DNA of 52,896 bases from an uncultured Spirochaetota bacterium. GTDB lineage: Bacteria > Spirochaetota > Spirochaetia > Treponematales > UBA12059. Below are positions 3,514 through 45,379 of the stretch, piece by piece (the first letter of the stretch is position 1; each line of letters begins with the position of its first letter). The DNA is taken from contig CALMRC010000129.1 of assembly GCA_937873275.1 (NCBI GenBank), positions 1-52,896 of the forward strand. Reading direction: 5' to 3'. The notes under the pieces were generated by a model that ran no database searches, was not told the origin of the DNA, and was given only the letters and a program-made list of their open reading frames with translations. A program made the translations under genes and the position numbers.

Positions 3514-5227
3514 GGGAAACTATTCCAACGGGGCGGCCCGATTCGTCCTTCCCTATCTCTTCGGGACGGACGCGGGCCTCTCCGGCTTCGACCCCGCGAC
3601 GCTGCGCCATTCCCGGTTCATCGTGCTCTGGGGGGCCAACATCCTGGAGGCGCGGCTGGGCACGGAGCTCCCCGCGCGGCTCCTGGAGGCCCGGCGGCTC
3701 GGAGCCCGGATCGTCAGCATCGACCCCCGGTACACGGACACCGCCCGCCGGTCCGGGGCCGGGTGGATCCCCGTCCGGCCGGGCACGGACGCCGCCCTCA
3801 TGCTCGCCGTGCTCCATGTCCTCCTTTCGGAGGGACTGGCCGACGAGGACTTCGCCCGCGGTCGATCCCGGGGCTTCGACGAGCTGGCCGACTACGTCCT
3901 GGGCCGAGACGGGGGCGGCCCCCGGGACCCCGCCTGGGCGGAGGGGATCTGCGGCATCCCCGCCGGGGAGATCCGGCGCTTCGCCCGGGAGTACGGACGG
4001 ACCAAGCCGGCCCTCCTCCTGCCCGGATACTCCATCCAGCGGGTATACGCCGGGGAGGATCCCTTCCGCCTCTCCGTCGCCCTCCAGCTGGCCACGGGCA
4101 ATTTCGGACGCCTCGGGGGATCCACGGGATCCATCAACAACCGTCTGCCGGGTCCCCGGGTCGGCTCCCTGGACGACCTGGACCGGCCGGAGAATCCCGG
4201 TGTTCCGATCCTGCGCTGGCCGGACGCGGTCCTCGAGGGGTGCTCCGGCGGGTATCCTGCGGACATACGGGCGGCCTACGTCTGCGGCTCGAATTTCCTG
4301 AACCAAGGGGGGGACGTCTCCAAGAATGTCCGGGCATTCCGTGCCCTGGACTTCGCGGTATGCCACGAGATGTTCCTGACCCCCACGGCCCGGCACTGCG
4401 ACGTCGTCCTGCCCGCGGCCTCGCCCCTGGAGAAGGAGGACATCGGCATCCCCTGGTGCGGGAACTGGGTGGCCTACAAGCGCGCCGCCTGCCCCCTCCG
4501 GGGCTCCGCGCGGACGGATTACGATATCCTTTCGGATCTCGCGCACCGGATGGGGTTCGGGGAGGCATTCACGGGGGGACGGTCCGAACGGGATTGGCTG
4601 GACGCCTTCCTTGAGGACTCCGATGTGCCCGATCCGGACGCTCTTCGGGAAACGGGGATCTACCTCGCCCCGGACCAGGAGCGGACGGGCCTGGCGGAAT
4701 TCGCCGAGGATCCCCGGGCGCATCCCCTGGGCACCCCCTCGGGCCTCGTCGAGCTCTCAAGCCCGGCCTGGGCCCGGGACACGGGGCTGCCGCCGATCCC
4801 CGTCTGGAGGCCGGCGCCCGAGGAGCCGGGCTTTTCCCTGCTCTTGACCACGCCCAAGTCCCCGCTCCGCACCCATTCCCAGGGAGGGGACTTAGGTACG
4901 CCGGCTTCATCGGGCGGAGCCGTCCTGACCCTCCATCCCCGGGACGCCGCCGCCCGGGGCATCCTGCCCGGCGCGGAGGTACGGATTCGAAACGCCCGGG
5001 GCTCCACCCGGGCCGTCGCGGAGCTAACGGAATCCATCCTCCCGGGCACGGTCAGCCTATACGAGGGCGCCTGGTACGAGGCGGTGCCCGAAGAATCCGG
5101 GCTCGACGCCGGTTTTGCCTCGGACCTCGGCGGATCCGCGAACGTCCTGACCGGCACCGAAGGGAGCCCTCCCTCCACCGCCTGCGTGATGCACGGGATT
5201 CCCGTGGAGGTCGAGAGGATCGGATGA
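3110..5227 (+). CDS. Molybdopterin-dependent oxidoreductase (DMSO reductase family)
   Basis: A 705-residue catalytic subunit of the Mo/W-bisMGD family. The N-terminus carries a 4Fe-4S motif with Cys7, Cys11, Cys16 and Cys43. The central molybdopterin domain includes the recognisable stretches VLWGANILEAR, SIDPRYTDTA and LLLPGYSIQR, and a C-terminal dinucleotide-binding domain covers about 570-700 (LLLTTPKSPLRTHSQ, LHPRDAAARGI, GTVSLYEGAWY). There is no Tat signal before the first cysteine, so a cytoplasmic enzyme is inferred. No electron-transfer (four-cluster ferredoxin) or membrane-anchor subunit lies beside it, so the partner is unknown. The substrate cannot be told from the sequence. Its ATG overlaps a TGA in the probable original lon frame, which suggests translational coupling. 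It converges on the next minus-strand gene with a 12-base gap. Confidence 0.85.
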   Translation: MTVPTFCGKDCGGNACPLAVEVEAGRPVRILRNPAAPPELAGCRRGRDLPAFHLSPDRIQEPLIRVGERGSRDFRPASWDEALSRVASRLGEIRARSGPASVLNLSSTGSTGALHDTRTLAARFLNAAGGATVLEGNYSNGAARFVLPYLFGTDAGLSGFDPATLRHSRFIVLWGANILEARLGTELPARLLEARRLGARIVSIDPRYTDTARRSGAGWIPVRPGTDAALMLAVLHVLLSEGLADEDFARGRSRGFDELADYVLGRDGGGPRDPAWAEGICGIPAGEIRRFAREYGRTKPALLLPGYSIQRVYAGEDPFRLSVALQLATGNFGRLGGSTGSINNRLPGPRVGSLDDLDRPENPGVPILRWPDAVLEGCSGGYPADIRAAYVCGSNFLNQGGDVSKNVRAFRALDFAVCHEMFLTPTARHCDVVLPAASPLEKEDIGIPWCGNWVAYKRAACPLRGSARTDYDILSDLAHRMGFGEAFTGGRSERDWLDAFLEDSDVPDPDALRETGIYLAPDQERTGLAEFAEDPRAHPLGTPSGLVELSSPAWARDTGLPPIPVWRPAPEEPGFSLLLTTPKSPLRTHSQGGDLGTPASSGGAVLTLHPRDAAARGILPGAEVRIRNARGSTRAVAELTESILPGTVSLYEGAWYEAVPEESGLDAGFASDLGGSANVLTGTEGSPPSTACVMHGIPVEVERIG

Positions 5228-33255: not shown

Positions 33256-34180
33256 TTATCCACGTCAGCTCGTGCTTGTTGTGCCATAGATGCACGACCC
33301 GGCTCCCCGGGATCGCGGCGAAGCGGTCCGTGGTTTCCCGGTCGTAGGCCGGACCCTGCATCTTGATGGTGCAGACGAAATTCCGGGCCAGCCCGGAGGC
33401 CAGCCAACGCTCCACCCATTCGTACAGGACCGGGGGGTAGCAGATCACGTCGGACAGGAGCCAGTCCACGGGGCCGACGTCCTCGGGACGCAGGGAGAAG
33501 GCGCTGCCCTTCCGGAACTCCACCCCCCGCAGGGCGGAGATCCGGGGTTCCAGGGGAGCCCGATCCACGGCCAGGACCGAGGCCCCCAGGCCCGCCAGGG
33601 CCCAGGTCCAGCCTCCCGGGGAGGCCCCCGCGTCCAGACATCGGTCCCCGGGTCCGGGACGTCGTCCGGCCAGGATCAAGGCCTCCCAGAGCTTCCGGTA
33701 CGCCCGGCTCGGCGGACCCTCCCGGTCCTCCTCGAACCGGAGCTCCCCGTTCGGGAAGGGGCTGGAGCAGTCCGAGGATCCCAGAAGGAGGCCCTCGTCC
33801 AGGAGGGTGAAGGCCCCCATGGGCGCCTCGGGAACCTCGAAGGGAAAGACCTTGGGCTTGGCCGGCAGGGGAGGCAGCTTTTCGGACAGGAGGGCGGAGC
33901 GACGGTAGAGCCGGGTAGGGCAGGGTGCCCAATTCCTCTGGATGGACCGCAGACGGGACGCCGCCTCCCCCAGGGACGAGAACTCCAGGAGGAAGGGCCG
34001 CCGCCAGACGTTGCGGACCCACCGGGCGGGGAGGACCGGGCCGGACCGTAGGACGAGGTCTCCGTCCTGGCGGTCCCACTCCCCCAGCTCGGCAAGGAGA
34101 TGGTGGGTCATGTCCGGGGCGGCGTGGTAGACCGCCGCGTCCAGGATCCGGGCGCCTTCGGGTACGGGGGATCCGCTCAC
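33236..34180 (-). CDS. RlmM/FtsJ-like SAM-dependent 2'-O-methyltransferase
   Basis: 314 residues. The Rossmann SAM loop is CLDAGASPGGWTWALA, followed by VLAVDRAPL. The catalytic tetrad of FtsJ-type 2'-O-methyltransferases can be traced: Asp in LLSDVICYPP, Lys in CTIKMQGPAYD and Glu in NKHELTWIKV. The N-terminal 130 residues resemble the RNA-binding part of RlmM-like proteins, so a 23S rRNA target is likely. The GTG start at 34180 overlaps the TGA of the large ATPase gene (GTGA). The last residues (KVDGGR) and the stop codon lie in repeat element C. Confidence 0.8.
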   Translation of the reverse strand: MSGSPVPEGARILDAAVYHAAPDMTHHLLAELGEWDRQDGDLVLRSGPVLPARWVRNVWRRPFLLEFSSLGEAASRLRSIQRNWAPCPTRLYRRSALLSEKLPPLPAKPKVFPFEVPEAPMGAFTLLDEGLLLGSSDCSSPFPNGELRFEEDREGPPSRAYRKLWEALILAGRRPGPGDRCLDAGASPGGWTWALAGLGASVLAVDRAPLEPRISALRGVEFRKGSAFSLRPEDVGPVDWLLSDVICYPPVLYEWVERWLASGLARNFVCTIKMQGPAYDRETTDRFAAIPGSRVVHLWHNKHELTWIKVDGGR

Positions 34181-37041
34181 AGGAATTTGTACCTCCGGGC
34201 GGCTTCCACCAACCGGCGGTTCCAGAGGTTCCGCTCCAGGAAATCCGAGCCCGCCCCGGCGTCCTCGATGCGGCCGGCCCGCTCCTGGAGGTACTTGAAG
34301 GCCCGGGAAAGCACGGTGGCCCGGTCCAGGGGGGGCTCCGTCAGCCGCTCCAGGAGGAGGAAGGCGAAGAACAGGTAGGTCGAGAAGGCGGGGTGCTCCG
34401 CCGCGAGCTTGTCCTCCCGGGTCATCCGGTATAGCTGGACGGCCCAGGCGCCTTCCCGTCGTTCCAGGCCCCGGGAGAAGCAGGAATAGGCGGCCGCGAG
34501 GTCCGCGTCGAAGGGATGGGGCGCGGAGGCTCCGAAAGCCCGGCGCTCGATGCCCCGATACCCGGAGTCCCAGAAGACCTTTTCCGCGGGATCGAAGGTC
34601 CCGTGCTCCCAGGGCGGAAGGCCGTCCAGGATCCCCGCCGCGCCCCCGGGATTCCCCCGGAGCAGCTCGAGCTCGGCCCGGAAGAACCGGGCCTCCCGGT
34701 CTTCCGAGCGGCGCGCGAATATGGCTTCCGCCGTGTCCGGACATCCCGAATAGGCCAGGGCCCGGGCGTCCCAGATCTCCGCCCGCCGGTCCGCGTCCTC
34801 GAATCCGTAGGCCCGGGCGATGGCCCGGACGTCCTCGAATCCCACCCGGGCTTCCTCGTATCGGCCGAGCTCCATGTGGATCCTGGCCCGCAGGAACACG
34901 GCGGCTGCCTCCCAATCCCGGCGGAACACCGTCCGGGCGGCGGCCTCGGCCTTGTCCGCCTGCTTGAGAGCCTTGTCGAGCCGCCCGGAGGCGAAGAGGG
35001 CCACGGCGGTGAACCACCGGCAGACGAGGCGTTCGTAATCGTCCCGGGCGGCCTCGGCGATGTCGTGGGCGTTTTCGAAGTACTCGATCGCCTCTTCCTG
35101 CCGTTCCCGGGCCAGGGCGCAGAGGCCCAGGATGCGATGGCACCGGGCCTCCATCTTGGGGATCGAGGAACCCCGCAGGGAAAGCAGGGCGTCCTTCGCG
35201 CGCTTGGCCGCCTCCGGAAACTCACGGCGGGCCAGGGCCCGCTCACCCCGAAGGAGGTCCGGAATGCCCGCGGGAAGGTCCGCCCGGTTCGCGGGTTCCT
35301 CCAAGTCCTCGATCAGGGCCGCCGTCCGGTCGTTCTCGCCGGAGACCAGGGAGGCCGCGGCGTCCCTCAGCTTCCGCAGCACCGGCGGGACATCCTTGTA
35401 GGCCGCCCGGCCTCGGTCCTGGGGGTCCTCGGACGCGTCCGTAAGGACGCAGTCCAGTTCGAAGCGCCGGCGATCCTCGCCGGAGAATCCCCGGGTCGCC
35501 GTCAGGAGCCCCAGGGACGGGAAGACCTGCCGTTGCCGATAGAGGTGGGTCAGGTACTCCGCGAGGGCCGTCTCGATGCGGTCCGCGTCCTGCCCCACGA
35601 AGCCGGCGAGTCTCCGGTTGGACATGCGGGAGGCGTTCCTCGGTCCGGGACCCGAGAGGTACCCCGTCTTTCCCAGGAGGTCCAGGACGATCCGGCGGGC
35701 CTTGGAGCGGAGTCCCAGGCGTTCCAGGAACTCGTGGAACCGGGCGACGTCCAGGACGTTCTCGCAGAGGCTCGCCGCGAAAAGCGCGGCGGCGGCTTCC
35801 CGGGGCATCAGGCCCAGGACGGCCTCGGACGGAGGAGGGCCGGAGGTCCCCTCCCGCTCCAGCAGGGCGCACCGGTACAGGAGGGGCAGGTCTCCCCGGG
35901 CGCGGGAGAACAGGGAGCGACGGACCTCCTCGGGGGAGTCCGGCAGTACCTTCGAGAGCTTGCCCGCGTATTCCCCGAAGTCCGGGGGGGCCAGGTCCCA
36001 TTCCAGGATCCCGTATTCCGGCCAGGATTGGGGACTGCCCCGGGCGGTGGTGGCCACGATCCGGGCTTCCGAGGAGAGGAGGAGCTCCCCCAGCAGGTCC
36101 AGGCTTTCCGGAGAGAAGCGGTGGAGATTCTCGCAGACGAGGATGGGCGGGAGCCCGGCCCGGGACATCTCCCGGATGTAGGCCCGTAGCATGAGGCCCA
36201 CGAACAGTCGATACCCGGTTTCCATGGACGGCGAGAGGGCGGAGCGGAAGGGGCTCGAGAAGACGAACCGGTAGGCGGGCAGGAGTCGGTCGTACAGAGC
36301 CTGCTCCCCCGGGGAGAGGCGGGGACGGGAGGCGGCCAGGAAGTCCTCGGTGATCCCGCAGGCCAAAGGATCGAAGGGCCGCGGATTCACCGTGCCTCCC
36401 CGCAAGGCCAGGAATCGATCGTACGGGTATCCGAGGATCTCCAGGGCCCGGGCCACGGTCGACTCCTTGCCGGTGCCCGCGGGGCCCCGGACGATGAGCA
36501 CGTTCTTCTCCCCCCCCACCACCAGTTCCCCGAGGAGTTCGGAAAGTCCGCCCGCCGTTTCCTCCCGGCAATAGAATTCCTGGGCCGACAGGGCCAGGCC
36601 GTCCAGGCTGTAGGAGGGACCCGAGGCCTTCCGGATCCCCGCATCCTGTCCCTCGAGTTCCAGGTAGCCCCCCACCTGCGCGGCGGCGGAGGGGCTCAGC
36701 CAGATGCCCTCCGGCCGATCCGCCTCCGCCCAGGCCCGGTCCAGGTCCGACCGGAGGGAGTCCTCGTCCCCGGCCTCGTGGAGGGCGACGAAGCAGTCCG
36801 TCGCCCCCTCGAACCGCTCCCGGAGGAGGGATCGGACGGCCAGGAGGGCCTCGACCGCCTGGAGACGCCAGAATATGGAATCCGAGTCGAACACGGCCAC
36901 GAAGGGGTGCTCCCGACCGGAAGGGCGGGCGCCGTAGTCCGCGGCGATACCCTCCAGGCTTGCCCGGAGTTCGCCGGCTCCCCGGGGATCCATGCGTCGA
37001 TATTGCCCGTGGTAGTCGATCCGCGCGTACAAGGCGATCAT
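34177..37041 (-). CDS. Large ATPase with C-terminal TPR-like helices (STAND/MalT-like architecture)
   Basis: 954 residues, soluble. Residues 1-140 look like the ferredoxin-like fold of a nucleotide-cyclase-type or sensor domain (MIALYARIDYHGQYRRMDP..., FVAVFDSDSIFW), but cyclase metal residues are not evident. Residues 165-400 form an ATPase: P-loop RGPAGTGKEST (about 187-197), with glutamate where Ser/Thr normally follows GK, and a hydrophobic strand PPILVCENLHRF at the Walker B position with CENLH instead of DDLH. Residues 570-860 form TPR-type helical pairs (RCHRILGLCALARERQEEAIEYFENAH, LGRYEEARVGFEDV). The architecture is that of signal-transduction ATPases. The altered P-loop and Walker B suggest weak or no hydrolysis. 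Function unknown; it is coupled to the methyltransferase gene. Confidence 0.72.
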   Translation of the reverse strand: MIALYARIDYHGQYRRMDPRGAGELRASLEGIAADYGARPSGREHPFVAVFDSDSIFWRLQAVEALLAVRSLLRERFEGATDCFVALHEAGDEDSLRSDLDRAWAEADRPEGIWLSPSAAAQVGGYLELEGQDAGIRKASGPSYSLDGLALSAQEFYCREETAGGLSELLGELVVGGEKNVLIVRGPAGTGKESTVARALEILGYPYDRFLALRGGTVNPRPFDPLACGITEDFLAASRPRLSPGEQALYDRLLPAYRFVFSSPFRSALSPSMETGYRLFVGLMLRAYIREMSRAGLPPILVCENLHRFSPESLDLLGELLLSSEARIVATTARGSPQSWPEYGILEWDLAPPDFGEYAGKLSKVLPDSPEEVRRSLFSRARGDLPLLYRCALLEREGTSGPPPSEAVLGLMPREAAAALFAASLCENVLDVARFHEFLERLGLRSKARRIVLDLLGKTGYLSGPGPRNASRMSNRRLAGFVGQDADRIETALAEYLTHLYRQRQVFPSLGLLTATRGFSGEDRRRFELDCVLTDASEDPQDRGRAAYKDVPPVLRKLRDAAASLVSGENDRTAALIEDLEEPANRADLPAGIPDLLRGERALARREFPEAAKRAKDALLSLRGSSIPKMEARCHRILGLCALARERQEEAIEYFENAHDIAEAARDDYERLVCRWFTAVALFASGRLDKALKQADKAEAAARTVFRRDWEAAAVFLRARIHMELGRYEEARVGFEDVRAIARAYGFEDADRRAEIWDARALAYSGCPDTAEAIFARRSEDREARFFRAELELLRGNPGGAAGILDGLPPWEHGTFDPAEKVFWDSGYRGIERRAFGASAPHPFDADLAAAYSCFSRGLERREGAWAVQLYRMTREDKLAAEHPAFSTYLFFAFLLLERLTEPPLDRATVLSRAFKYLQERAGRIEDAGAGSDFLERNLWNRRLVEAARRYKFL

Positions 37042-37096: not shown

Positions 37097-37125
37097 TTGT
37101 CCCCTCGGCCCGGTTCGTATATCAT
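37097..37125 (+). promoter_or_regulatory. Promoter of the HATPase-PilZ gene pair
   Basis: TTGTCC (37097-37102), 17-base spacer, TATCAT (37120-37125). It is divergent from the ATPase promoter. Confidence 0.5.
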
Positions 37126-37193: not shown

Positions 37194-37769
37194 ATGACGC
37201 CGTATTTAGAATACAGGGATTCGAAAAGCCAGGAACTCACGCTTCGGTTCGCCCCCGGTCAGGAGTTCCGCCAAGTGGTCGATGCCGTGCGATCGGTCAA
37301 GCTTCCTCCCCTCCCTCTCAACGCGGAACTTGCCGCGTTTTCCGTGCTGGAACTCCTGTCCAATTCCATCCGGGCCCACCGGGAACGCGGGGTCGGCGAG
37401 GAGGTGGAGGTGCGATATTCCATCGCGGACAACCGCCTCTCCATCGAGATCCTGGACGCCGGACGGGGCTTCGATCCGGGCCGGCTGCCCTACTGCTTGG
37501 ACGGCTCCCCGGATACAGTGGACCTCCGTTCGGAAAGCTTCGCGGAATACCGGATGCGGCACGGGAACGGTCGGTTCGGGATGGGACTGCTGGCGGCCCG
37601 GAAGACCTTTCCCGCCTTCGACCTGACCTTCGTCGACCGGGACCAATGCCCCTGCCCCTGGTATTCCGGCATGGTACGGGGAACCCGGATCGTCCTGTCC
37701 GCCCCGGTGGCCTCGGAGGCCTGGTCCGAGGACCTCGAGGAACTGCCCTTGGCGGAGGAGGCGGAATGA
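37194..37769 (+). CDS. HATPase-fold protein (anti-sigma-factor/histidine-kinase-like ATP-binding)
   Basis: 191 residues consisting of a single GHKL ATPase domain: N-box ELLSNSIRAH (53-62), G1 box DAGRGFD (88-94) and G2 box GNGRFGMGL (124-132). There is no phospho-acceptor histidine domain and no membrane segment. A stand-alone domain of this type is usual for RsbW/SpoIIAB serine kinases or for a phosphotransfer partner. It is followed by a PilZ protein with an ATGA overlap, so a c-di-GMP-linked switch is inferred. Start: ATG at 37194 with AAGCC upstream, no clear Shine-Dalgarno. Confidence 0.8.
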   Translation: MTPYLEYRDSKSQELTLRFAPGQEFRQVVDAVRSVKLPPLPLNAELAAFSVLELLSNSIRAHRERGVGEEVEVRYSIADNRLSIEILDAGRGFDPGRLPYCLDGSPDTVDLRSESFAEYRMRHGNGRFGMGLLAARKTFPAFDLTFVDRDQCPCPWYSGMVRGTRIVLSAPVASEAWSEDLEELPLAEEAE

Positions 37770-38104
37770 GTCGGGAACGCCGCGGACTGGATCGGAACCG
37801 GGGGTTCGCCCGGGCGGGCCTGGTGCCCTCCCTGTACGGGTACGTGGCGGACGTCTCCGTCCGGGGCTTCCGAGCGGTCTTCCCCGGGGATCCCCGGCTG
37901 GCCGGAGGCGATTCCGCGGTTCCGGTCCTCTCCTTCGCGGAGATCGAGGTCGAGCCCTTCCCCCTACCCTCGGAGGTCCGCTGGGTCCGGGAACGGGACG
38001 GTGCCTGGGAGGTGGGGTTCGCCGTCCGCCTGCCGATGCCCGAGGGACCCGCGGAACGGGATTTCTTCCGGATCCACGAGTATTACCGGGCAACCGTCCG
38101 ATAG
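37766..38104 (+). CDS. PilZ-domain c-di-GMP-binding protein
   Basis: 112 residues, essentially one PilZ domain: R12-GFA-R16 fits RxxxR, and D29-V-S31-VR-G34 fits [D/N]xSxxG, the two c-di-GMP contact motifs with the usual spacing. The ATG overlaps the TGA of the HATPase gene. An upstream extension of this frame to 37097 is out-of-frame sequence of that gene. It probably acts as an adaptor that reports c-di-GMP to the ATPase or downstream phosphatase module. Confidence 0.8.
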   Translation: MSRERRGLDRNRGFARAGLVPSLYGYVADVSVRGFRAVFPGDPRLAGGDSAVPVLSFAEIEVEPFPLPSEVRWVRERDGAWEVGFAVRLPMPEGPAERDFFRIHEYYRATVR

Positions 38105-38106
38105 AT

Positions 38107-38175
38107 AGCCGCCCCGCCCCGAAATCCCTCAGACGATCGGGAATCGAGCCGAAAACTAAGGGAAGGCGGTTTTGA
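38107..38175 (+). terminator. Possible terminator after the PilZ gene
   Basis: GCCGCC (38108-38113) pairs with GGCGGT (38165-38170), and TCCCT (38125-38129) with AGGGA (38159-38163), followed by TTTTGATT. The loop is long, so confidence is low. Confidence 0.35.
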
Positions 38176-38181
38176 TTAACC

Positions 38182-38210
38182 TTGACCCCCAACTCCGCGG
38201 ATGATAGACT
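38182..38210 (+). promoter_or_regulatory. Promoter of the rsbU-rsbV-rsbW set
   Basis: TTGACC (38182-38187), 17-base spacer, TAGACT (38205-38210), followed by a T-run. The leader is about 65 bases. Confidence 0.55.
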
Positions 38211-38282
38211 TTTTTGGACGTATCGTCGGGCGATCCCCCGGATTCGTCCCGGAGTCCGCCGCATGCTTCCCGAGGGTTCGCA

Positions 38283-40217
38283 ATGAGCATTCCATCGATC
38301 GAGCAGATTCTCGGATCCCCCTTGCCCGTCAAGCTCATCGTCCTGCTCGGGATGAGCGCCGTCTTCCTGTACGTCCGGAAACGGGACGCCGAGGGGCTGA
38401 CCTCCGGATTCTTCTACCTCTTCGCCCTTCAGGCGGTCCGGGACACTGCGTACGCGTTCCTGCCGATACCGCAGGTCTATCTGATCTCCGACCTCTTCAT
38501 CTTCGCGGCCCTGGTATACCTGATCGCCTCCACCCTCGGAGGCCGCGCCCTGGTCGTCGGGGTGTCCGCCTTGAACCTCGCCGCGGTCCTTCTGGCCCTG
38601 GCGGACTACGCCCTGCCCTTCCTTCCGGCCTTGCCGATATCTCCCCTCGGACTGGTTCCGGCCCTGGACTCCGCGGTCCTGGCGGTGTTCCTCGCGGTCC
38701 GGGGGAGGTCCCAGGATCGGACCCTGCTCAACGCCGGCACCCTCGCGGCCGCCCTCGGGGCGGCCTACGCCGCCGTCGCCCTTTTCCTGGGATACGGGTC
38801 GGATTTCCTCCACGAAGTCGCGGTACCCCTGTTCTATTTCTGGCCCCTGGGAATCGCCTTCTACCAGCTGGAGACCCACGAGGGCCAGTTGGTACGGGCC
38901 CTGGAGTACTACGAGGGCGAGGTGGATTCCATCTACCGCCTGTCCATCGAATCCGGGGCGGCCATGCGAAAGACCTTCTCGATCTCGGACATGCTGGACG
39001 GACTTACCCGGGTCATCGTCTCGGAGACCGAGGCGGACGGCGGGGCCGTGCTCCTGGTGGACGAGTTCGAGGACGTCGTCGGATTCCGTTCCGTTCAGGG
39101 GCGGTTTCCCCCTCCCTTCAAGCTCCCCGAGGACCTTCCCCGGAAGCCGGAGCGGGTGGAGGCCTTCGTGCGGCACGCCCAGTTCAAGCTGGGGGAAACC
39201 CTGTTCGGGGAAGCCGCGAAAACCGGGAAACCCCTCTTCGTTCCCCTGGCGGACGGGGACGAGCGGATCCAGTCGAACGGTCCCGAGGATTTTCTTCGGG
39301 TGGGCTCCCTGATGGCCGTCCCTCTCCTGGTGGAGGATACGGTCATCGGTGTGGTCGCGGTGGAACGGCTTCCGGGGCGGGAGCCCTTCTCGGAGGGACG
39401 GTTCGACCACCTGAAGACCCTGGCCAACTTCGGGGCCCTCCAGATCAGCAATTTCTTTTCATTCCAGGAAGCCCGGGAACGGAGCGAACGCGAGCGCGCC
39501 TCCAACATCGCCGCGGAGATCCAGGGTCTCATCGTACCCAAGAAGCTGCCGGAATTTCCCACCGCGGCCCTGGGCGCCTTCACGGCCCCGGCGATCGGCG
39601 TCAGCGGCGACTATTTCGACGTCATCCAGACCCGGAAGGACCGGGTTCTCCTGGCCGTGGGGGACGTGGCCGGGAAGGGAGTGGCCGCGGCGCTGGTGAT
39701 GGTCATGGTGCGTTCCGTCCTCCACCTCGTGGCCAACACGGACAAAGACGTGGCCACCATGCTATCCTGGATCAACCGGGGCATCACGGGCAAGATCGAG
39801 ATGGACCATTACGCCACCCTGGGGCTCGTGGACGTGAACCTGGCCACCGGGGAGATCGAGTACGCGAACGCGGGACACCAGCCGCTCCTGATCTTCCGGG
39901 CCGAGGAGGACGGCATCGAATCCGTGGAACTGAAGAGCATCCCCATCGGGGTGGAGCGGGGCACGGGCTTCGTCAAGAGGACCCTGAGCCTGAAGTCCGG
40001 GGATATGCTCCTCATGTACACGGACGGCGTCGTGGAATCGATGAACGCCCAGGGTCGCCAGTTCGGGCGCAAGAACCTGGGTACGTCCCTGCTCCGGAGC
40101 CGGGAGCTTTCCGCCCGGGAAGCCGCCCTGCGGATCCGTGCGGACCTGGCGAATTTCGCGGGCGAGGCGCGCCAGCATGACGACCAGACCGTCCTGGTCC
40201 TGAAGATGAAACTCTAG
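38283..40217 (+). CDS. rsbU: RsbU-type PP2C phosphatase with membrane and GAF sensor domains
   Basis: 644 residues. Residues 14-200 hold about six membrane segments. Residues 240-400 form a GAF-like domain (FSISDMLDGLTRVIVSETEADGG, VPLLVEDTVIGVVAVERLP). Residues 430-644 are a SpoIIE/RsbU PP2C phosphatase, with metal aspartates Asp443 in GVSGDYFDV and Asp461 in GDVAGKG, then DGVVES and RQHDDQTVLVLK. The role is dephosphorylation of the STAS antagonist encoded next, in response to a membrane or ligand signal. The ATG at 38283 was chosen with GAGG upstream; an earlier TTG at 38214 lies in the leader just after the -10. A comparable rsbU-rsbV-rsbW order is known from Treponema. Confidence 0.9.
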   Translation: MSIPSIEQILGSPLPVKLIVLLGMSAVFLYVRKRDAEGLTSGFFYLFALQAVRDTAYAFLPIPQVYLISDLFIFAALVYLIASTLGGRALVVGVSALNLAAVLLALADYALPFLPALPISPLGLVPALDSAVLAVFLAVRGRSQDRTLLNAGTLAAALGAAYAAVALFLGYGSDFLHEVAVPLFYFWPLGIAFYQLETHEGQLVRALEYYEGEVDSIYRLSIESGAAMRKTFSISDMLDGLTRVIVSETEADGGAVLLVDEFEDVVGFRSVQGRFPPPFKLPEDLPRKPERVEAFVRHAQFKLGETLFGEAAKTGKPLFVPLADGDERIQSNGPEDFLRVGSLMAVPLLVEDTVIGVVAVERLPGREPFSEGRFDHLKTLANFGALQISNFFSFQEARERSERERASNIAAEIQGLIVPKKLPEFPTAALGAFTAPAIGVSGDYFDVIQTRKDRVLLAVGDVAGKGVAAALVMVMVRSVLHLVANTDKDVATMLSWINRGITGKIEMDHYATLGLVDVNLATGEIEYANAGHQPLLIFRAEEDGIESVELKSIPIGVERGTGFVKRTLSLKSGDMLLMYTDGVVESMNAQGRQFGRKNLGTSLLRSRELSAREAALRIRADLANFAGEARQHDDQTVLVLKMKL

Positions 40218-40264
40218 GGGGACCGGGAAATGCTCGATATCTTGCTAAGGAGGGCCTGCGTACC

Positions 40265-40603
40265 ATGGAATTGAAGATACGCAAGACGGGTACCAACTAC
40301 ATCATCGACGTCAACGGCGAGATGGACTTGTACAACTCGTACAAGCTCAAGGAGCTGGTGATGAAGATGCTGGAGAAGAAGGTCGAGCGCTTCATCATCA
40401 ACCTGGAGAACGTCGATTACATCGATTCCAGCGGAATCGGCGCCCTCATCTACATCTGCTCCACCATCAAGAAGCAGGGATACAAGCTCGTGATCACGAA
40501 CATCCACGGTTCGGTCAAGAAGGTCATCGAGCTCACCAAGCTCATGGGTTACTTCCCGATCATGAACAGCATCGAGGAAGCCATCCTCCGCATGGAGGAG
40601 TGA
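40265..40603 (+). CDS. rsbV: STAS-domain anti-sigma factor antagonist
   Basis: 112 residues, a complete STAS domain. VDYIDSSGIGALI carries the phosphorylated serine (Ser56, second of SS) typical of RsbV/SpoIIAA. When dephosphorylated by the upstream phosphatase it should bind the kinase/anti-sigma factor encoded next. Strong Shine-Dalgarno AAGGAGG, though 11 bases ahead of the ATG. Confidence 0.92.
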   Translation: MELKIRKTGTNYIIDVNGEMDLYNSYKLKELVMKMLEKKVERFIINLENVDYIDSSGIGALIYICSTIKKQGYKLVITNIHGSVKKVIELTKLMGYFPIMNSIEEAILRMEE

Positions 40604-40606
40604 GCC

Positions 40607-41188
40607 ATGGATTCCGCGGACACCACCTATCTTTCGGGGATCCACGAGATCCGGGTCGACGAGAACAGCCCCCTGTTCGAGAAGACCAACATGCTGTTCA
40701 AGGAATTCCCCTCGGACTACCGGCAGATCCGGTACTTCACCCTCCTGATCGTCCAATCGGCCCCCCTGGAGATCAAGGAGATCAACCTCCTGGAGCAGCA
40801 GATCTCGGAGATCATCAAGAACGCCGTGAAGCACGGGAACAAGTGCGTCCCGGAGAAGAAGGTCCGGGTCTGGTACGAGTTCGACGCCTCCCACGCCCAC
40901 CTGATCGTCCAGGACGAGGGGGAAGGGTTCAAGGACCTGGAGACCTGGAACGAATTCAACCGCCGGCGCCTGGAGAAGCTTGCGGCCCAGGACTTCGAGG
41001 GGCTCGCGGACTACGTCTCGTTCCGGACCGAATCCTCCGACGACAACGACGGCGGGAACGCCCTGTTCGCGGCCCTGGAGTACTGGAACGGCGGATTCGT
41101 CTACAACACCCGGCGGAACGCCGTGGCCATGCTCAAGAAGTACCCCCAGAGACACCTGGGGGTCACCCTGGAGGACCGGACCGGCTGA
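40607..41188 (+). CDS. rsbW: RsbW-like serine kinase / anti-sigma factor
   Basis: 193 residues. GHKL ATPase with N-box EIIKNAVKHGNK (68-79) and G1 box DEGEGF (103-108). The G2 part is represented by DDNDGGNALFAAL. The N-terminal 60 residues and the insertion WNEFNRRRLEKLAAQDFEGLADYV are longer than in SpoIIAB. It follows rsbV by three bases, so a partner switch phosphatase/antagonist/kinase is well supported. No sigma factor gene is in the window, so the final target is unknown. Confidence 0.85.
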   Translation: MDSADTTYLSGIHEIRVDENSPLFEKTNMLFKEFPSDYRQIRYFTLLIVQSAPLEIKEINLLEQQISEIIKNAVKHGNKCVPEKKVRVWYEFDASHAHLIVQDEGEGFKDLETWNEFNRRRLEKLAAQDFEGLADYVSFRTESSDDNDGGNALFAALEYWNGGFVYNTRRNAVAMLKKYPQRHLGVTLEDRTG

Positions 41189-41206
41189 GGCTCGGGGCTC
41201 CGGCCC

Positions 41207-42454
41207 CTAGAGCAGGCCCCGCATCGGGAGCCCCTCGATGCTGGTGGCGTCGTCGTCCGTGAAGGGCCGGCCGTAGAGGTACTCGAAGAGGTACCGGAAA
41301 TCCTCCGGGGCGATGTGGGTGAAGGCCACGCCGTAGAACGCCCCCTGCTCGTCCAGGAAACGCCGGCGGACCACCCCCCCCGCGGAAAGGTTCCGCTTCC
41401 CCGTGGACAGGGTCACCACGATCTCGGATCCCTCCAGAAGGGCCCGCTGCAGGGACTCGTCGGTACTACCGAAGAGGATGCCCCCCGCGGACAGGTCGAT
41501 GGTCTCCGTGGATATGCCGGCCCCCCGGCGGGGCGCGTTCCGGAAGTATCCGTTGATCTTGAGGGACCAGGCCAGGACTTTCGCGAATTGTGCGAACGTA
41601 TCCAGGACCCCCAGGTCGAAGGGGGCCTTGCCGGGCTGGCGGTTCAGGATGTGCACGAAGCCCACCACGTATTCCTGGAACAGGATGGGGATCTTGAGCT
41701 CCGAGAGCACCCCCTCCACGCGCTTGGCCCGCTCGAACCGGGCCAGCTCGTCCTCCCGGTAGGCCGGCTCCACGCCGTGCTCCTCGAAGAGCTCCAGGAA
41801 ATCGTCCCGGGTCAGGATGCGCTGGGAAGCGTAGGGATCCACGACGGGGATGCCCCCGATCGCGGTGGGCAGATAGTAGATGCGTCCGTGCCGGGTCATC
41901 AACTCTTCCTCGATCCCCTCGGGACCCCGTGCCTTGAACATGACCACGGCCCGGTCGGAGGCGATCTTGGCGGCCTTGCGATAGAACTCCTGCATGAGTT
42001 TGCGGATGTCCCGGGGCTCGAATTCCGGATTCGCCTGGGGCTCCTCCACGGGATCGAAGGCCTCGGAGGAGGGGAAGGGGAGTTCGTACCGCTCTCCCTT
42101 GAAGGAGAAGGACACGGTAAGCCCGGCCGGCGGGGTCATCCGGGGGTAGCGGCGGCTCAGGTTTTTCCAGACCGTGTCGGGCATTTCCGTGACCAGACGG
42201 CCCTCGCCGGATTCCTTGACCCGGGCGCGGAAGGCGACGGTCTGCCCCCGGACCAGGAAGGTGAAGTCCAGGCCGGCCCCCTTGGACAGGACGCGGAGGG
42301 GGGCGGAATGGCGGAACACGACGAACTTGTCCCGGACCTCCGCGATCCGCACGGCCCACTCGGTCCCCCCCGCGGACATCAGGATTTCCAGGTTCTCGTC
42401 GCAGGCCGCCCGGAGCAGGAATTCCCGCTCCACGCGCTTGACCGGTACCGCCAT
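41207..42454 (-). CDS. PilZ-domain protein with N-terminal YcgR-like region
   Basis: 415 residues. The N-terminal 110 residues are all-beta and resemble a PilZN/YcgR-type domain (LDFTFLVRGQTVAFRARVKE), with RRYPRMTPP after it. A mixed region (130-310, QEFYRKAAKIASDRAVVMF...) may be a degenerate sensor domain. Residues 315-400 form a PilZ domain (TIDLSAGGILFGSTD, VVRRRFLDEQGAFYGVAFTHI). Such large PilZ proteins (some filed under DUF1577) are common in spirochaetes. It is the downstream gene of a two-gene minus-strand unit with the lipoprotein gene (6-base gap). Confidence 0.78.
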   Translation of the reverse strand: MAVPVKRVEREFLLRAACDENLEILMSAGGTEWAVRIAEVRDKFVVFRHSAPLRVLSKGAGLDFTFLVRGQTVAFRARVKESGEGRLVTEMPDTVWKNLSRRYPRMTPPAGLTVSFSFKGERYELPFPSSEAFDPVEEPQANPEFEPRDIRKLMQEFYRKAAKIASDRAVVMFKARGPEGIEEELMTRHGRIYYLPTAIGGIPVVDPYASQRILTRDDFLELFEEHGVEPAYREDELARFERAKRVEGVLSELKIPILFQEYVVGFVHILNRQPGKAPFDLGVLDTFAQFAKVLAWSLKINGYFRNAPRRGAGISTETIDLSAGGILFGSTDESLQRALLEGSEIVVTLSTGKRNLSAGGVVRRRFLDEQGAFYGVAFTHIAPEDFRYLFEYLYGRPFTDDDATSIEGLPMRGLL

Positions 42455-42460
42455 GCCGCC

Positions 42461-43189
42461 TCACCTTCCCGTGGGTTTCACGGTCCGTATCGTCGGATCG
42501 AAGAGTCCCCGCTCCCCGCCGGGAATCCAGGGTTCCGATTCCCGATCCAGGACCACCAGCTCCAGGCCCCAGCCGGTACCCGGAGTGTCCGCCAGGATCG
42601 CATCCCCCAGGATCCTGCCCTTCCGACCGACCAGGAGGACGGGGAAGATCCATCCCCCCTCGGGACGGGGAAGGCCCCGACCCAGTCTCCACCGGAGCAC
42701 CCGGGATCCGTCGTCCAGCAAATCCTTCACCATGAATAGTATCACATCCCGGGCGTCCGGAACCGCGCCTTCCACCCGCCCTTCCGTCAGGCCGTCCAGG
42801 AATATCCGGGCGGCGTCGACCGCGGAGGATTGGGGCGACCCGGAGGCCGAAAGATCCTCCAGGTCTCCCAGGGAGTAATCCGCGGGCAGGAACCGCGCCA
42901 GGGGCCGGTTTCCGATCAGGCGGTCCGGGGTCGCGGCCCGGAGGGGCGGTTCTCCGGGGGAAGCCGGCCGGGCGGCGGGGGTCCCCGTCCGGGAAGCGGG
43001 TTCTATGGGGCGGGAACCGGATTTCGCGGGCGCCGCCGCCTCCCCGGACGGGCCGTCGGCGCCCGGGGAAGCGGCGTCCGGCGGCGGGCGGGTGCAGGCC
43101 GCGAGCGCGGCGGACGCCAGGGCGGCGGACGCCAAGACGGCGGCCGCGAGGAAGACAAGCAAGGGTTCGGCGTTGCGCGTCGGGATCAC
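42461..43189 (-). CDS. Lipoprotein, unknown function
   Basis: 242 residues. Signal peptide with hydrophobic residues 9-30 (LLVFLAAAVLASAALASAAL) and a lipobox LAAC with Cys32. A Pro/Ala/Ser-rich spacer (33-85) follows, then a folded region without recognised motifs (RFLPADYSLGDLEDL, VILFMVKDLLDDGSRVLRWRLGRGL). Predicted to be anchored to a membrane by Cys32. The start is GTG without a Shine-Dalgarno; the promoter's -10 ends eight bases before it, so a leaderless transcript is likely. Confidence 0.75.
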   Translation of the reverse strand: MIPTRNAEPLLVFLAAAVLASAALASAALAACTRPPPDAASPGADGPSGEAAAPAKSGSRPIEPASRTGTPAARPASPGEPPLRAATPDRLIGNRPLARFLPADYSLGDLEDLSASGSPQSSAVDAARIFLDGLTEGRVEGAVPDARDVILFMVKDLLDDGSRVLRWRLGRGLPRPEGGWIFPVLLVGRKGRILGDAILADTPGTGWGLELVVLDRESEPWIPGGERGLFDPTIRTVKPTGR

Positions 43190-43197
43190 GATATCGT

Positions 43198-43226
43198 AGT
43201 ATGGGGGCTCGGGAGGATCGGGTCAA
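43198..43226 (-). promoter_or_regulatory. Promoter of the lipoprotein/PilZ pair
   Basis: On the minus strand: TTGACC (43226-43221), 17-base spacer, CATACT (43203-43198), eight bases before the GTG. Confidence 0.5.
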
Positions 43227-43291
43227 ATGGTATCCGGAGAACAGGGTATGGTCCGGGGGGTGTCTCCGGGCGCCGGGCGCCGGAGGGCGCG

Positions 43292-44137
43292 TTGACCTGG
43301 CGGCCCGGTCCCGAACTTCGGGCGGCCCTGCGGGGCGATCCGTCCCCCTGGGCCGATCGGTTCGTCCGCCGTGTGGGCGCGGCGATCCACCGGTTCGGGA
43401 TGATCCGGGCCGGGGACGGAGTCCTCGTGGGGGTCTCCGGGGGAAAGGATTCCCTGGCCCTCTGTCTGGCCCTGGAGCTGCGACGCCGCCGGGTGCGGGA
43501 CGGCTACCGCCTGGCCGCCGGGATGGTGGACTGGGACGACCGGCCCGCGGATCCCGGGTATCTCGAGGATCTCCGGGCCTTCCTCGACACCGTCGGGATC
43601 CCCTTCCGGTCGCGATCCGCCTCCCGCGTCTCCGCCCGGACCGGGGCCTGGGGGTGTTACGAGTGCGCCCGGGCCCGGAAGCGGGAGCTCTTCCGGGCCG
43701 CCCGGGAGATGGGGTTCGGGACCGTGGCCCTGGGGCATCACCTGGACGACATGGCGGAAACCCTCCTTCTGAACCTGGCCGTCCACGGCCGGTTCGAGGG
43801 CATGGAGCCTTCGCGCTCCTTCTTCGGGGGCGAGGTCCGGGTGGTCCGCCCCCTCTGCGCCGTCCGGGAGGGCACCGTGCGGACCTTCGCGGAGCGCATG
43901 GAGCTGCCCGTCCTGGCCTCGGAGTGCCCCCGGGGCGCGGAGAACCCGCGGCGAAAGGTCAAGGACCTCCTTGTGGAGATGGCGAAAATCCATAGACTAG
44001 TACGGGAACACCTATTCGCCGCGTACGTCGGGATGCCGGAGGGCGAGCCGTCGGACGCGGGCGGCATCGCGGACGGCCGGGAATCCGGGGCGCGTGAATC
44101 GCCGGGGGGAGGGCGGGCATGGAAATCCACAATCTAA
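43292..44137 (+). CDS. TtcA-like tRNA thiolation enzyme (PP-loop ATPase)
   Basis: 281 residues. The PP-loop is VGVSGGKDSLAL (SGGKDS at 49-54), which adenylates the tRNA base before sulfur insertion. The cysteine pair C122-YE-C125 and a later ASEC form the 4Fe-4S site of the TtcA/TtuA group, and ALGHHLDDMAETLLLNL is the TtcA hallmark. The likely product is 2-thiocytidine at position 32 of tRNA. The start is taken at TTG 43292 behind GGAGGG; no ATG or GTG near it is in frame. The C-terminal 35 residues (after AAYVGMPEG) look unstructured. It overlaps the ComFB-like gene by 19 bases. Confidence 0.83.
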   Translation: MTWRPGPELRAALRGDPSPWADRFVRRVGAAIHRFGMIRAGDGVLVGVSGGKDSLALCLALELRRRRVRDGYRLAAGMVDWDDRPADPGYLEDLRAFLDTVGIPFRSRSASRVSARTGAWGCYECARARKRELFRAAREMGFGTVALGHHLDDMAETLLLNLAVHGRFEGMEPSRSFFGGEVRVVRPLCAVREGTVRTFAERMELPVLASECPRGAENPRRKVKDLLVEMAKIHRLVREHLFAAYVGMPEGEPSDAGGIADGRESGARESPGGGRAWKSTI

Positions 44138-44814
44138 TGGAAGACATCGTGCGGAGCGCCGTGGACGAGCTCTTCGACGCGGAGGAGCGGGATCCGAAGC
44201 TGGGATTCTGCACCTGTCCCCAGTGCCGGATGGACGTGAGCTGCTACGTCCTCAACCGGATCCCCCCGGAGTACGTGACCTCCGGTCGGGGAGTCGTGCA
44301 CGGCGAGACCGATTGGTCCGGCAAGGTCCAGCGGACCGCGGACGTCCTGACCCTGGTCCGGGAAGGCTGGACCCGGATCAACCAGAAGAAGCGTCCCCAG
44401 TACCACCAGGGTTCCCCGGTCGCGATCTCGAAGCTCCCCGCCGGCCCGGTCTTCAACTTCCCCTCCCTGATGGGCCGCCTGTTCAACGGGGTGGATTTTT
44501 CCCCCCTCGCGGATATCCAGGTTGGATTGTACCGGGGGGAGGAACTCCTGCCCATGATCGATCCCAACTGGCAAAACCCCTGCCGGGTCGTGCAGGAGAC
44601 CGAGGGCATGTACATCTTCTGGCCCCGACCCCTGCCCGCGGCGACCCCGGGGGAGGAGGCGGTATTCCAGTTGCGGGTCCGTGCCGATATACCCGGCTTC
44701 GAGGAAGTGTCCCACTACTTCGAGCTTTCCTTGACGGCGGAATCCTCCGCGGTGGACCAGATCACCGTGCGCAAGGTGCACAAACTGCCGGATCTGTACG
44801 TGTTTCCTAAGTGA
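44119..44814 (+). CDS. ComFB-domain protein
   Basis: 231 residues. The N-terminal 90 residues fit the late-competence ComFB family: MEDIVRSAVDELF, then a cysteine cluster C31-x-C33-x2-C36 and Cys42, then VLNRIPPEYVTSGRG. ComFB proteins from cyanobacteria have been shown to bind cyclic dinucleotides, so this may be another c-di-GMP/c-di-AMP reader in a region with two PilZ proteins. The C-terminal 130 residues (LPAGPVFNFPSLM..., MYIFWPRPLPAATPGEEAVFQLRVRADIPG) are all-beta and not recognised. The stop codon is supplied by repeat element D. Confidence 0.78.
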   Translation: MEIHNLMEDIVRSAVDELFDAEERDPKLGFCTCPQCRMDVSCYVLNRIPPEYVTSGRGVVHGETDWSGKVQRTADVLTLVREGWTRINQKKRPQYHQGSPVAISKLPAGPVFNFPSLMGRLFNGVDFSPLADIQVGLYRGEELLPMIDPNWQNPCRVVQETEGMYIFWPRPLPAATPGEEAVFQLRVRADIPGFEEVSHYFELSLTAESSAVDQITVRKVHKLPDLYVFPK

Positions 44815-45343: not shown

Positions 45344-45379
45344 TGGGAAATAGTGGGAAATAATAGGAAAGAGTGGTAT
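45344..45379 (+). promoter_or_regulatory. MraZ-binding repeat boxes
   Basis: TGGGAA at 45344, TGGGAA at 45354, TAGGAA at 45364 and TGGTAT at 45374 are spaced exactly 10 bp, one helical turn. This is the TGGG direct-repeat pattern bound by MraZ at its own promoter. The fourth, degenerate unit runs into the mraZ ATG (45378), and the third unit (AGGAAAGAG) doubles as the only ribosome-binding sequence. Confidence 0.75.

Follow-up and report, generated by a model that had tools for sequence, protein, structure and literature searches.

Could a dedicated receptor of the second messenger cyclic di-GMP (c-di-GMP) set the activity of a partner-switching kinase? This question is raised by a locus in an uncultured Spirochaetota bacterium (UBA12059; GenBank assembly GCA_937873275.1, contig CALMRC010000129.1), in which the gene of a stand-alone HATPase overlaps that of a single-domain PilZ protein and is followed by genes for an RsbU-, an RsbV- and an RsbW-like protein (RsbUVW). 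"The window" below means the whole stretch of DNA that was analyzed, 52,896 nucleotides in length. We propose that the HATPase and the PilZ protein together make up a c-di-GMP-gated kinase of the partner-switching kind and that RsbV is the likeliest partner for it in this cluster, a reading whose chances as a whole fall just short of even. This best explanation rests on the coupling of the two genes, their pairing across deep distances, natural fusions between them, intact motifs, and the predicted fold of the HATPase. From these we infer complex formation, c-di-GMP binding, kinase activity, and RsbV as the substrate. The features on which the argument turns are given here; domain calls on proteins of the window come from a Pfam scan with family cut-offs, and the promoter-like sites come from a consensus scan, which is not functional evidence.

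34177-37041, minus strand: cyclase-fold/AAA/TPR gene, 954 amino acids (Pfam AAA_16, 41.2 bits; TPR; N-terminal fold match)
37097-37125, plus strand: promoter-like site 5' of the HATPase gene, TTGTCC-17-TATCAT
37194-37769, plus strand: stand-alone HATPase (HATPase_c_2, 31.3 bits; cut-off 27.4)
37766-38104, plus strand: single-domain PilZ protein (PilZ, 25.3 bits; cut-off 22.5)
38182-38210, plus strand: promoter-like site 5' of RsbU, TTGACC-17-TAGACT, with TG before the second hexamer
38283-40217, plus strand: RsbU-like PP2C phosphatase (GAF; SpoIIE, 158.1 bits; hydrophobic N-terminus by eye)
40265-40603, plus strand: RsbV-like STAS protein with an IDSSG site (STAS, 84.6 bits; TIGR00377, 97.5 bits, cut-off 53.45)
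40607-41188, plus strand: RsbW-like HATPase (HATPase_c_2, 33.1 bits; under the cut-offs of the RsbW and SpoIIAB equivalogs)

The HATPase and PilZ genes as a pair

The reading frames of the HATPase and PilZ genes share 4 bases, ATGA at 37766-37769. We compared 62 loci of the HATPase family: the window and 26 others (first set), followed by 35 more (second set, from 38 new genomes minus 3 duplicates), with search profiles built from the first 27 loci only. The PilZ gene lies directly 3' of the HATPase gene, or is fused to it, in 53 of the 62 loci (23/27 in the first set and 30/35 in the second), and one of the nine unpaired loci (L182, second set) stops at a contig end. These 62 loci do not count as independent observations, as 21 of them come from the largest family (f57), and some are cut by contig ends; outside f57, the pairing is seen in 36 of 41 loci. 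The HATPase profile search scored up to eight candidates per genome, so single absences are no proof. The family is sharply bounded, with 16 of 392 phylum-sample genomes scoring at least 174.8 bits and the next score at 50.5, and it is matched in 52 of 394 class-sample genomes at E ≤ 1e-20. Weak HATPase matches in G012, G103, G174, and G203 and a second match in G186 were excluded from the counts as being of another kind. A scan of contigs across genomes used one narrow peptide pattern that did not return one of the families with the pair (f6), and it yields nothing firm on other phyla.

In four loci (L053, where the fused gene spans 4162-5022, and L181, L187, and L196) the HATPase and PilZ domains are encoded by a single open reading frame. 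We placed these fusions in a HATPase tree built by a quick method, with Shimodaira-Hasegawa-like approximate likelihood ratio test supports only and with two wrongly cropped rows (L042 and L050) that form false long branches. The fusion of L053 groups with relatives of the window at a fork supported by 89, whereas L181, L187, and L196 group with L034 and L054 (support 97). Because the fusions fall in two parts of the tree, their placement suggests two separate fusion events. This suggestion is not firm, since L053 is also flagged as a long row and its placement is uncertain.

All eight genes compared with a genome of the same genus (G001) are open in both genomes and constrained. The ratios of nonsynonymous to synonymous substitution rates (dN/dS) are 0.12 for the HATPase, 0.15 for the PilZ protein, 0.17 for RsbU, 0.03 for RsbV, 0.11 for RsbW, 0.10 for a large PilZ protein and 0.13 for a ComFB-domain protein further downstream, and 0.22 for the upstream cyclase-fold gene. 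The block is also syntenic in other families. Chance co-location of the locus genes was considered and is ruled out by the frequency of the pairing, the fusions, and the dN/dS values. We regard it as very likely that the HATPase and the PilZ protein act as one unit. A first-pass annotation of this DNA had described the two genes as a coupled pair and had proposed to follow the set across spirochaetes; the overlap and the pairing confirm the former, and in the latter comparison a loss of gene order together with an absence of co-occurrence is not what was seen.

Receptors of c-di-GMP in the PilZ family are marked by two motifs, RxxxR and [DN]x[SA]xxG. The window's PilZ protein carries both RxxxR and DxSxxG. 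Among the 53 PilZ homologues, RxxxR and the glycine of the second motif are each present in every one, and the second motif is found in its strict form in 41. RxxxR also appears in a passage of an earlier study (PMC11800159). Judging from these motifs, the window's PilZ protein is likely to bind c-di-GMP.

The ATP-binding boxes of HATPases are known as N, G1, G2, and G3. Their residues are kept almost throughout the family: E53 and N57 in 61 of 62 sequences, D88, G92, G129, and G131 in all 62, and G163 and T164 in 61. We modeled the HATPase with AlphaFold2 at a mean predicted local distance difference test (pLDDT) score of 88.9, and structural alignment placed SpoIIAB first (Z 12.6, 130 residues, 3.0 Å), followed by RsbW (12.1), LvrC of Leptospira, whose entry is titled a response regulator (11.4), SiaB-SiaC (11.1), UsfX (10.5), and an RsbU/RsbW-domain entry of Rv1364c (10.0). 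The 12 best rows, with Z between 10.0 and 12.6, comprise SpoIIAB, RsbW, anti-sigma-F, SiaB, RsbU/RsbW-domain, and LvrC entries, whereas histidine kinases score lower (CckA at 9.0; ZraS and others at 9.0 and below). In Foldseek, LvrC ranks first and is followed by SpoIIAB and RsbW; pyruvate dehydrogenase kinases rank lower. The predicted fold is thus of the partner-switch kinase or anti-sigma kind, nearer to it than to histidine kinases. The HATPase misses the curated RsbW equivalogs NF003144 (16.8 against a cut-off of 145 bits) and TIGR01924 (12.4 against 155.05 bits), and we therefore call the family RsbW-like in its modeled fold, and not RsbW. The first-pass annotation had suggested that c-di-GMP gates an anti-sigma or kinase activity here; this idea gains from the pairing, from the kept c-di-GMP motif, and from the fold.

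Variants of the arrangement were seen in several relatives. At L184, L191, L195, and L204 (f57, genus g202), the PilZ gene alone is missing and the HATPase gene is followed directly by those of RsbV and RsbW. Read by eye, the fused gene of L053 is surrounded on the opposite strand (L053:1964-6115) by genes for a STAS protein, a histidine-kinase-like protein, and a response regulator that seems to carry an HD-GYP domain. In family f32 (L035, L036, and L037), genes of another small HATPase family, marked by DELLSN, DELVSN, or DELISN, stand directly 5' of a TrmB-like methyltransferase gene (names by eye).

Possible partners of the pair

How might such a pair enter a partner switch? In the mechanism we propose, c-di-GMP would set, through the PilZ subunit, the activity of a kinase of the RsbW/SpoIIAB/SiaB kind. 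The kinase would then bind or phosphorylate a STAS partner, here RsbV, serving as a second kinase or as a sequestering partner. RsbV would thereby receive three inputs, from the membrane GAF phosphatase RsbU (which would dephosphorylate it), from the RsbW-like kinase, and from the c-di-GMP-gated second kinase. The upstream cyclase-fold/AAA/TPR protein would probably serve this switch as an additional sensor or as a scaffold.

Gene neighborhoods bear on the identity of the partner. Writing H for the HATPase, P for PilZ, and U, V, and W for RsbU, RsbV, and RsbW, the 62 loci divide into H-P-U-V-W (9), H-P-V-W (13), H-V-W (4), H-P-V (3), H-P-U (1), H-P with none of U, V, and W (23), fused (4), and H alone (5). 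RsbV is found 3' of the HATPase in 29 loci, RsbW in 26, and RsbU in 10. The HATPase and RsbV stay adjacent where RsbU, RsbW, or PilZ is missing, which favors RsbV as the partner, though in few lineages. Also in its favor, the three H-P-V genomes, all of family f6, have a separate RsbU-STAS-RsbW operon at another place, and their STAS protein beside the pair keeps IDSSG. We name RsbV as the partner tentatively, in the knowledge that this assignment is slightly more apt to fail than to hold.

A number of observations weigh against the proposal. The pair has no RsbV downstream in 28 of 62 loci (24 separate and 4 fused), some of which are cut by contig ends. All 17 H-P-V-W and H-V-W loci come from f57 and the three H-P-V loci from f6; outside f57, RsbV follows the HATPase in 12 of 41 loci. 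Two of the 13 HATPase genomes tested (G413 and G358) have the pair but nothing that matches RsbW, and the closest they come to RsbV is a STAS protein of 28-29% identity; G541, the twin of G413, is rated 93% complete. Conversely, the otherwise same RsbUVW block lacks the pair in the close relatives G010, G015, and G025, and a promoter-like site lies between the pair and RsbU. The second PilZ motif departs from [DN]x[SA]xxG in 12 of 53 proteins (T or N for S/A, by eye), and the match between the HATPase and the window's own RsbW is barely seen at the sequence level (19.6 bits). Finally, in f6 the identity of the STAS protein beside the pair to the window's RsbV is about tied with that of the STAS protein beside RsbW (41 and 43% in G063, 40 and 43% in G104, and 53 and 47% in G186). 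We do not claim that the f6 STAS protein beside the pair is the true RsbV: the STAS tree is poorly resolved, with 3 of 22 inner branches starred, and the RsbV profile was trained on these very f6 STAS sequences.

In four further genomes (G004, G009, G041, and G416, the last being the genome of L053), the upstream gene and RsbUVW lie together and the HATPase lies elsewhere. From these genomes and the three RsbUVW blocks that lack the pair, it follows that the pair is a movable module; the view of it as a fixed component of RsbUVW was rejected on these grounds. The consensus scan found two promoter-like sites against 0.4 expected, and because they precede both the HATPase and RsbU genes, the pair and RsbUVW may belong to separate transcripts. 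On the suggestion of the first-pass annotation that RsbV is possibly shared with RsbW, the loci point both ways: RsbV does follow the HATPase at nearly half of the loci, whereas the pair also occurs in two genomes that have neither an RsbW match nor a close RsbV, and elsewhere it has moved away from RsbUVW. The genome of G013 has no close RsbV, but it has an RsbW match of 47%. Across the phylum, RsbW is matched in 144 of 296 genomes, 47 of these matches being weak (E above 1e-9).

The divergent upstream gene is itself a candidate partner. Residues 1-150 of its product are modeled as a class III cyclase fold (pLDDT 90.9) and align with adenylyl and guanylyl cyclases at Z 13.3-14.7 among the best 50 rows listed, the top one over 141 residues; the best Foldseek E is 8e-6, and the sequence profile of this N-terminus matches no cyclase in the PDB. 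Class III cyclases use metal-binding aspartates. In a by-eye register, R7 and H45 of the upstream protein would stand at these positions, with other residues there in most relatives; the P-loop varies between members. The order of cyclase fold, AAA, and TPR is the architecture of soluble adenylyl cyclase, which the protein (cyclase fold, AAA_16, TPR) resembles. Because the metal aspartates, by eye, seem not to be kept and the P-loop is variable, the protein appears likelier to be a scaffold or sensor than an enzyme.

We considered three other roles for the pair. It may be a c-di-GMP-gated switch kinase whose partner is not RsbV but another STAS protein or the cyclase-fold/AAA/TPR protein, its position near RsbUVW being due to shared locus ancestry. 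Of the 62 loci, 44 have the upstream gene next to that of the HATPase, among them 40 of the 53 PilZ-bearing loci, compared with 29 for RsbV; the count combines 43 loci from the arrangement table with L050, where an over-long HATPase reading frame hid the upstream gene. Moreover, the two genomes that have the pair but neither a close RsbV nor an RsbW match both hold another STAS gene, of about 185-205 amino acids. The upstream gene, however, also stays beside RsbU in genomes that lack the pair or carry it at another place and is therefore not specific to the pair, and RsbV is kept beside the HATPase through the losses of other genes described above. We consider this alternative possible, if rather doubtful. 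It is improbable that the HATPase acts as an anti-sigma factor gated by c-di-GMP and holds a sigma factor directly, with no need of a STAS protein: the nearest fold entries are SpoIIAB and RsbW, some solved with sigma F, and the genome has 11 Sigma70_r2 matches, whereas the recurrent STAS gene favors a switch with an antagonist. Least probable by our estimate is an RsbT-like role, RsbT being a protein that, once its partner lets it go, switches on the phosphatase RsbU; c-di-GMP-bound PilZ would here be the releasing signal. Although the pair stands directly 5' of RsbU in 10 of 62 loci, one of which (L179) lacks both RsbV and RsbW, 17 loci have HATPase, RsbV, and RsbW without RsbU, 3 have HATPase with RsbV alone, and the RsbU of this locus carries a GAF domain and, by eye, a hydrophobic N-terminus.

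Two further observations concern STAS and RsbW genes in these genomes. The STAS gene of about 185-205 amino acids was found in three spirochaete genomes (L149:3042-3593, L150:2901-3512, and L151:3183-3734), two of which have no close RsbV; the L149 protein joins a Pfam STAS domain to a zinc-ribbon-like tail (19.5 bits, below the cut-off of 27.6), and a tail of this kind is seen by eye in L150. At L025:7974-9061, on the same contig as L046, the RsbW gene of a HATPase-PilZ-RsbU-RsbV operon is in three pieces, whether as a broken gene, by an insertion, or through an assembly error.

Relation to known switches

The RsbU-RsbV-RsbW and SpoIIAA-SpoIIAB switches likewise have a single operon for a STAS protein, a HATPase kinase, and a PP2C phosphatase, and SpoIIAB and RsbW are the closest to the modeled HATPase in fold. 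In contrast to them, the present locus has a second HATPase and a PilZ protein, its HATPase falls below the curated RsbW and SpoIIAB cut-offs, and it is without a known sigma target. The CA domain of CckA bound to c-di-GMP (PDB 5idm), which is among the fold rows for the HATPase, exemplifies c-di-GMP acting on a HATPase-fold kinase. There c-di-GMP binds the kinase domain itself, whereas here a separate or fused PilZ domain would bind it. RsiG, too, is linked to c-di-GMP and is not known to be a HATPase-PilZ pair. In the RsiG-WhiG sigma/anti-sigma switch (PMC8325347), c-di-GMP gates a partner choice of the anti-sigma type. SiaABCD of Pseudomonas aeruginosa (PMC7278518, PMC7647112, and PMC8457831) is a partner-switch type module tied to c-di-GMP in which the switch controls a c-di-GMP-making enzyme, so that c-di-GMP is its output; in the present locus, by contrast, the receptor of c-di-GMP would provide an input. 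Besides SiaB-SiaC as a fold neighbor of the HATPase, the likeness extends to RsbU, which the SiaA profile matches weakly (52.4 bits; cut-off 700).

We found no earlier description of the HATPase-PilZ combination in the literature, which was covered mostly by title and the beginning of the abstract, with subscription journals and preprints largely outside the scope. If the proposal is right, c-di-GMP becomes an input to a partner switch, a new type of input. It would also tie the second messenger of motility and biofilm formation to a widespread spirochaete regulator of the RsbW type. The natural HATPase-PilZ fusions allow a direct test with one purified protein. The fuller picture, in which c-di-GMP acts through a dedicated PilZ protein as a direct ligand of the switch kinase, RsbW and the c-di-GMP-gated HATPase, each with its own input, compete for a single STAS protein, a degenerate cyclase-fold/AAA/TPR protein serves as the scaffold, and this system is spread across spirochaete families, is possible, and we hold it with distinctly less confidence than would make it probable.

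Other candidate second-messenger readers at the locus

Downstream of the switch genes lie four more genes:

41207-42454, minus strand: large YcgR-like PilZ protein, probably of GAZ type (PilZ, 32.5 bits; DUF1577 weak)
42461-43189, minus strand: putative lipoprotein (no Pfam match; lipobox-like LAAC by eye)
43229-44137, plus strand: TtcA/TilS-like PP-loop protein (PP-loop, 58.2 bits; TtcA model, 139.5 bits, below the cut-off of 272)
44119-44814, plus strand: ComFB-domain protein (ComFB, 69.8 bits; cut-off 25)

Every gene named by the first-pass annotation was recovered; its list of the cluster omits the TtcA/TilS-like gene and the divergent upstream gene, the latter just outside the segment it covered. 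The genome of 3.6 Mb has seven PilZ matches, two of them less than 4 kb apart at this locus. The PilZ match of the large PilZ protein lacks the first 22 profile positions and sets in at position 23; against DUF1577, the window's protein scores 12.6 bits, that of L045 22.3, and that of the syntenic L087 31.5 (cut-off 25). Passages of PMC11800159 place the YcgR-GAZ family in spirochaetes. Marks of the family are a DUF1577 match and a GAF-like insertion in the PilZ domain after the first strand; from its sequence, the large PilZ protein is probably of this type. The ComFB protein scores 29.7, short of the 120 that the NCBIfam equivalog demands, and cyanobacterial ComFB binds c-di-AMP and c-di-GMP according to passages of PMC12313861. 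Because the large PilZ protein resembles YcgR-GAZ and ComFB binds cyclic dinucleotides in cyanobacteria, it is reasonable to view the locus as a candidate cluster of second-messenger readers. The two papers match the cluster's two other candidate readers; their passages mention no HATPase-PilZ pair.

The ComFB gene is followed by mraZ at 45378, a gene named from its sequence and position, without a family search. The TtcA-like and ComFB genes (window 43229-44814) overlap, and in several other families the two are adjacent, often just 5' of mraZ.

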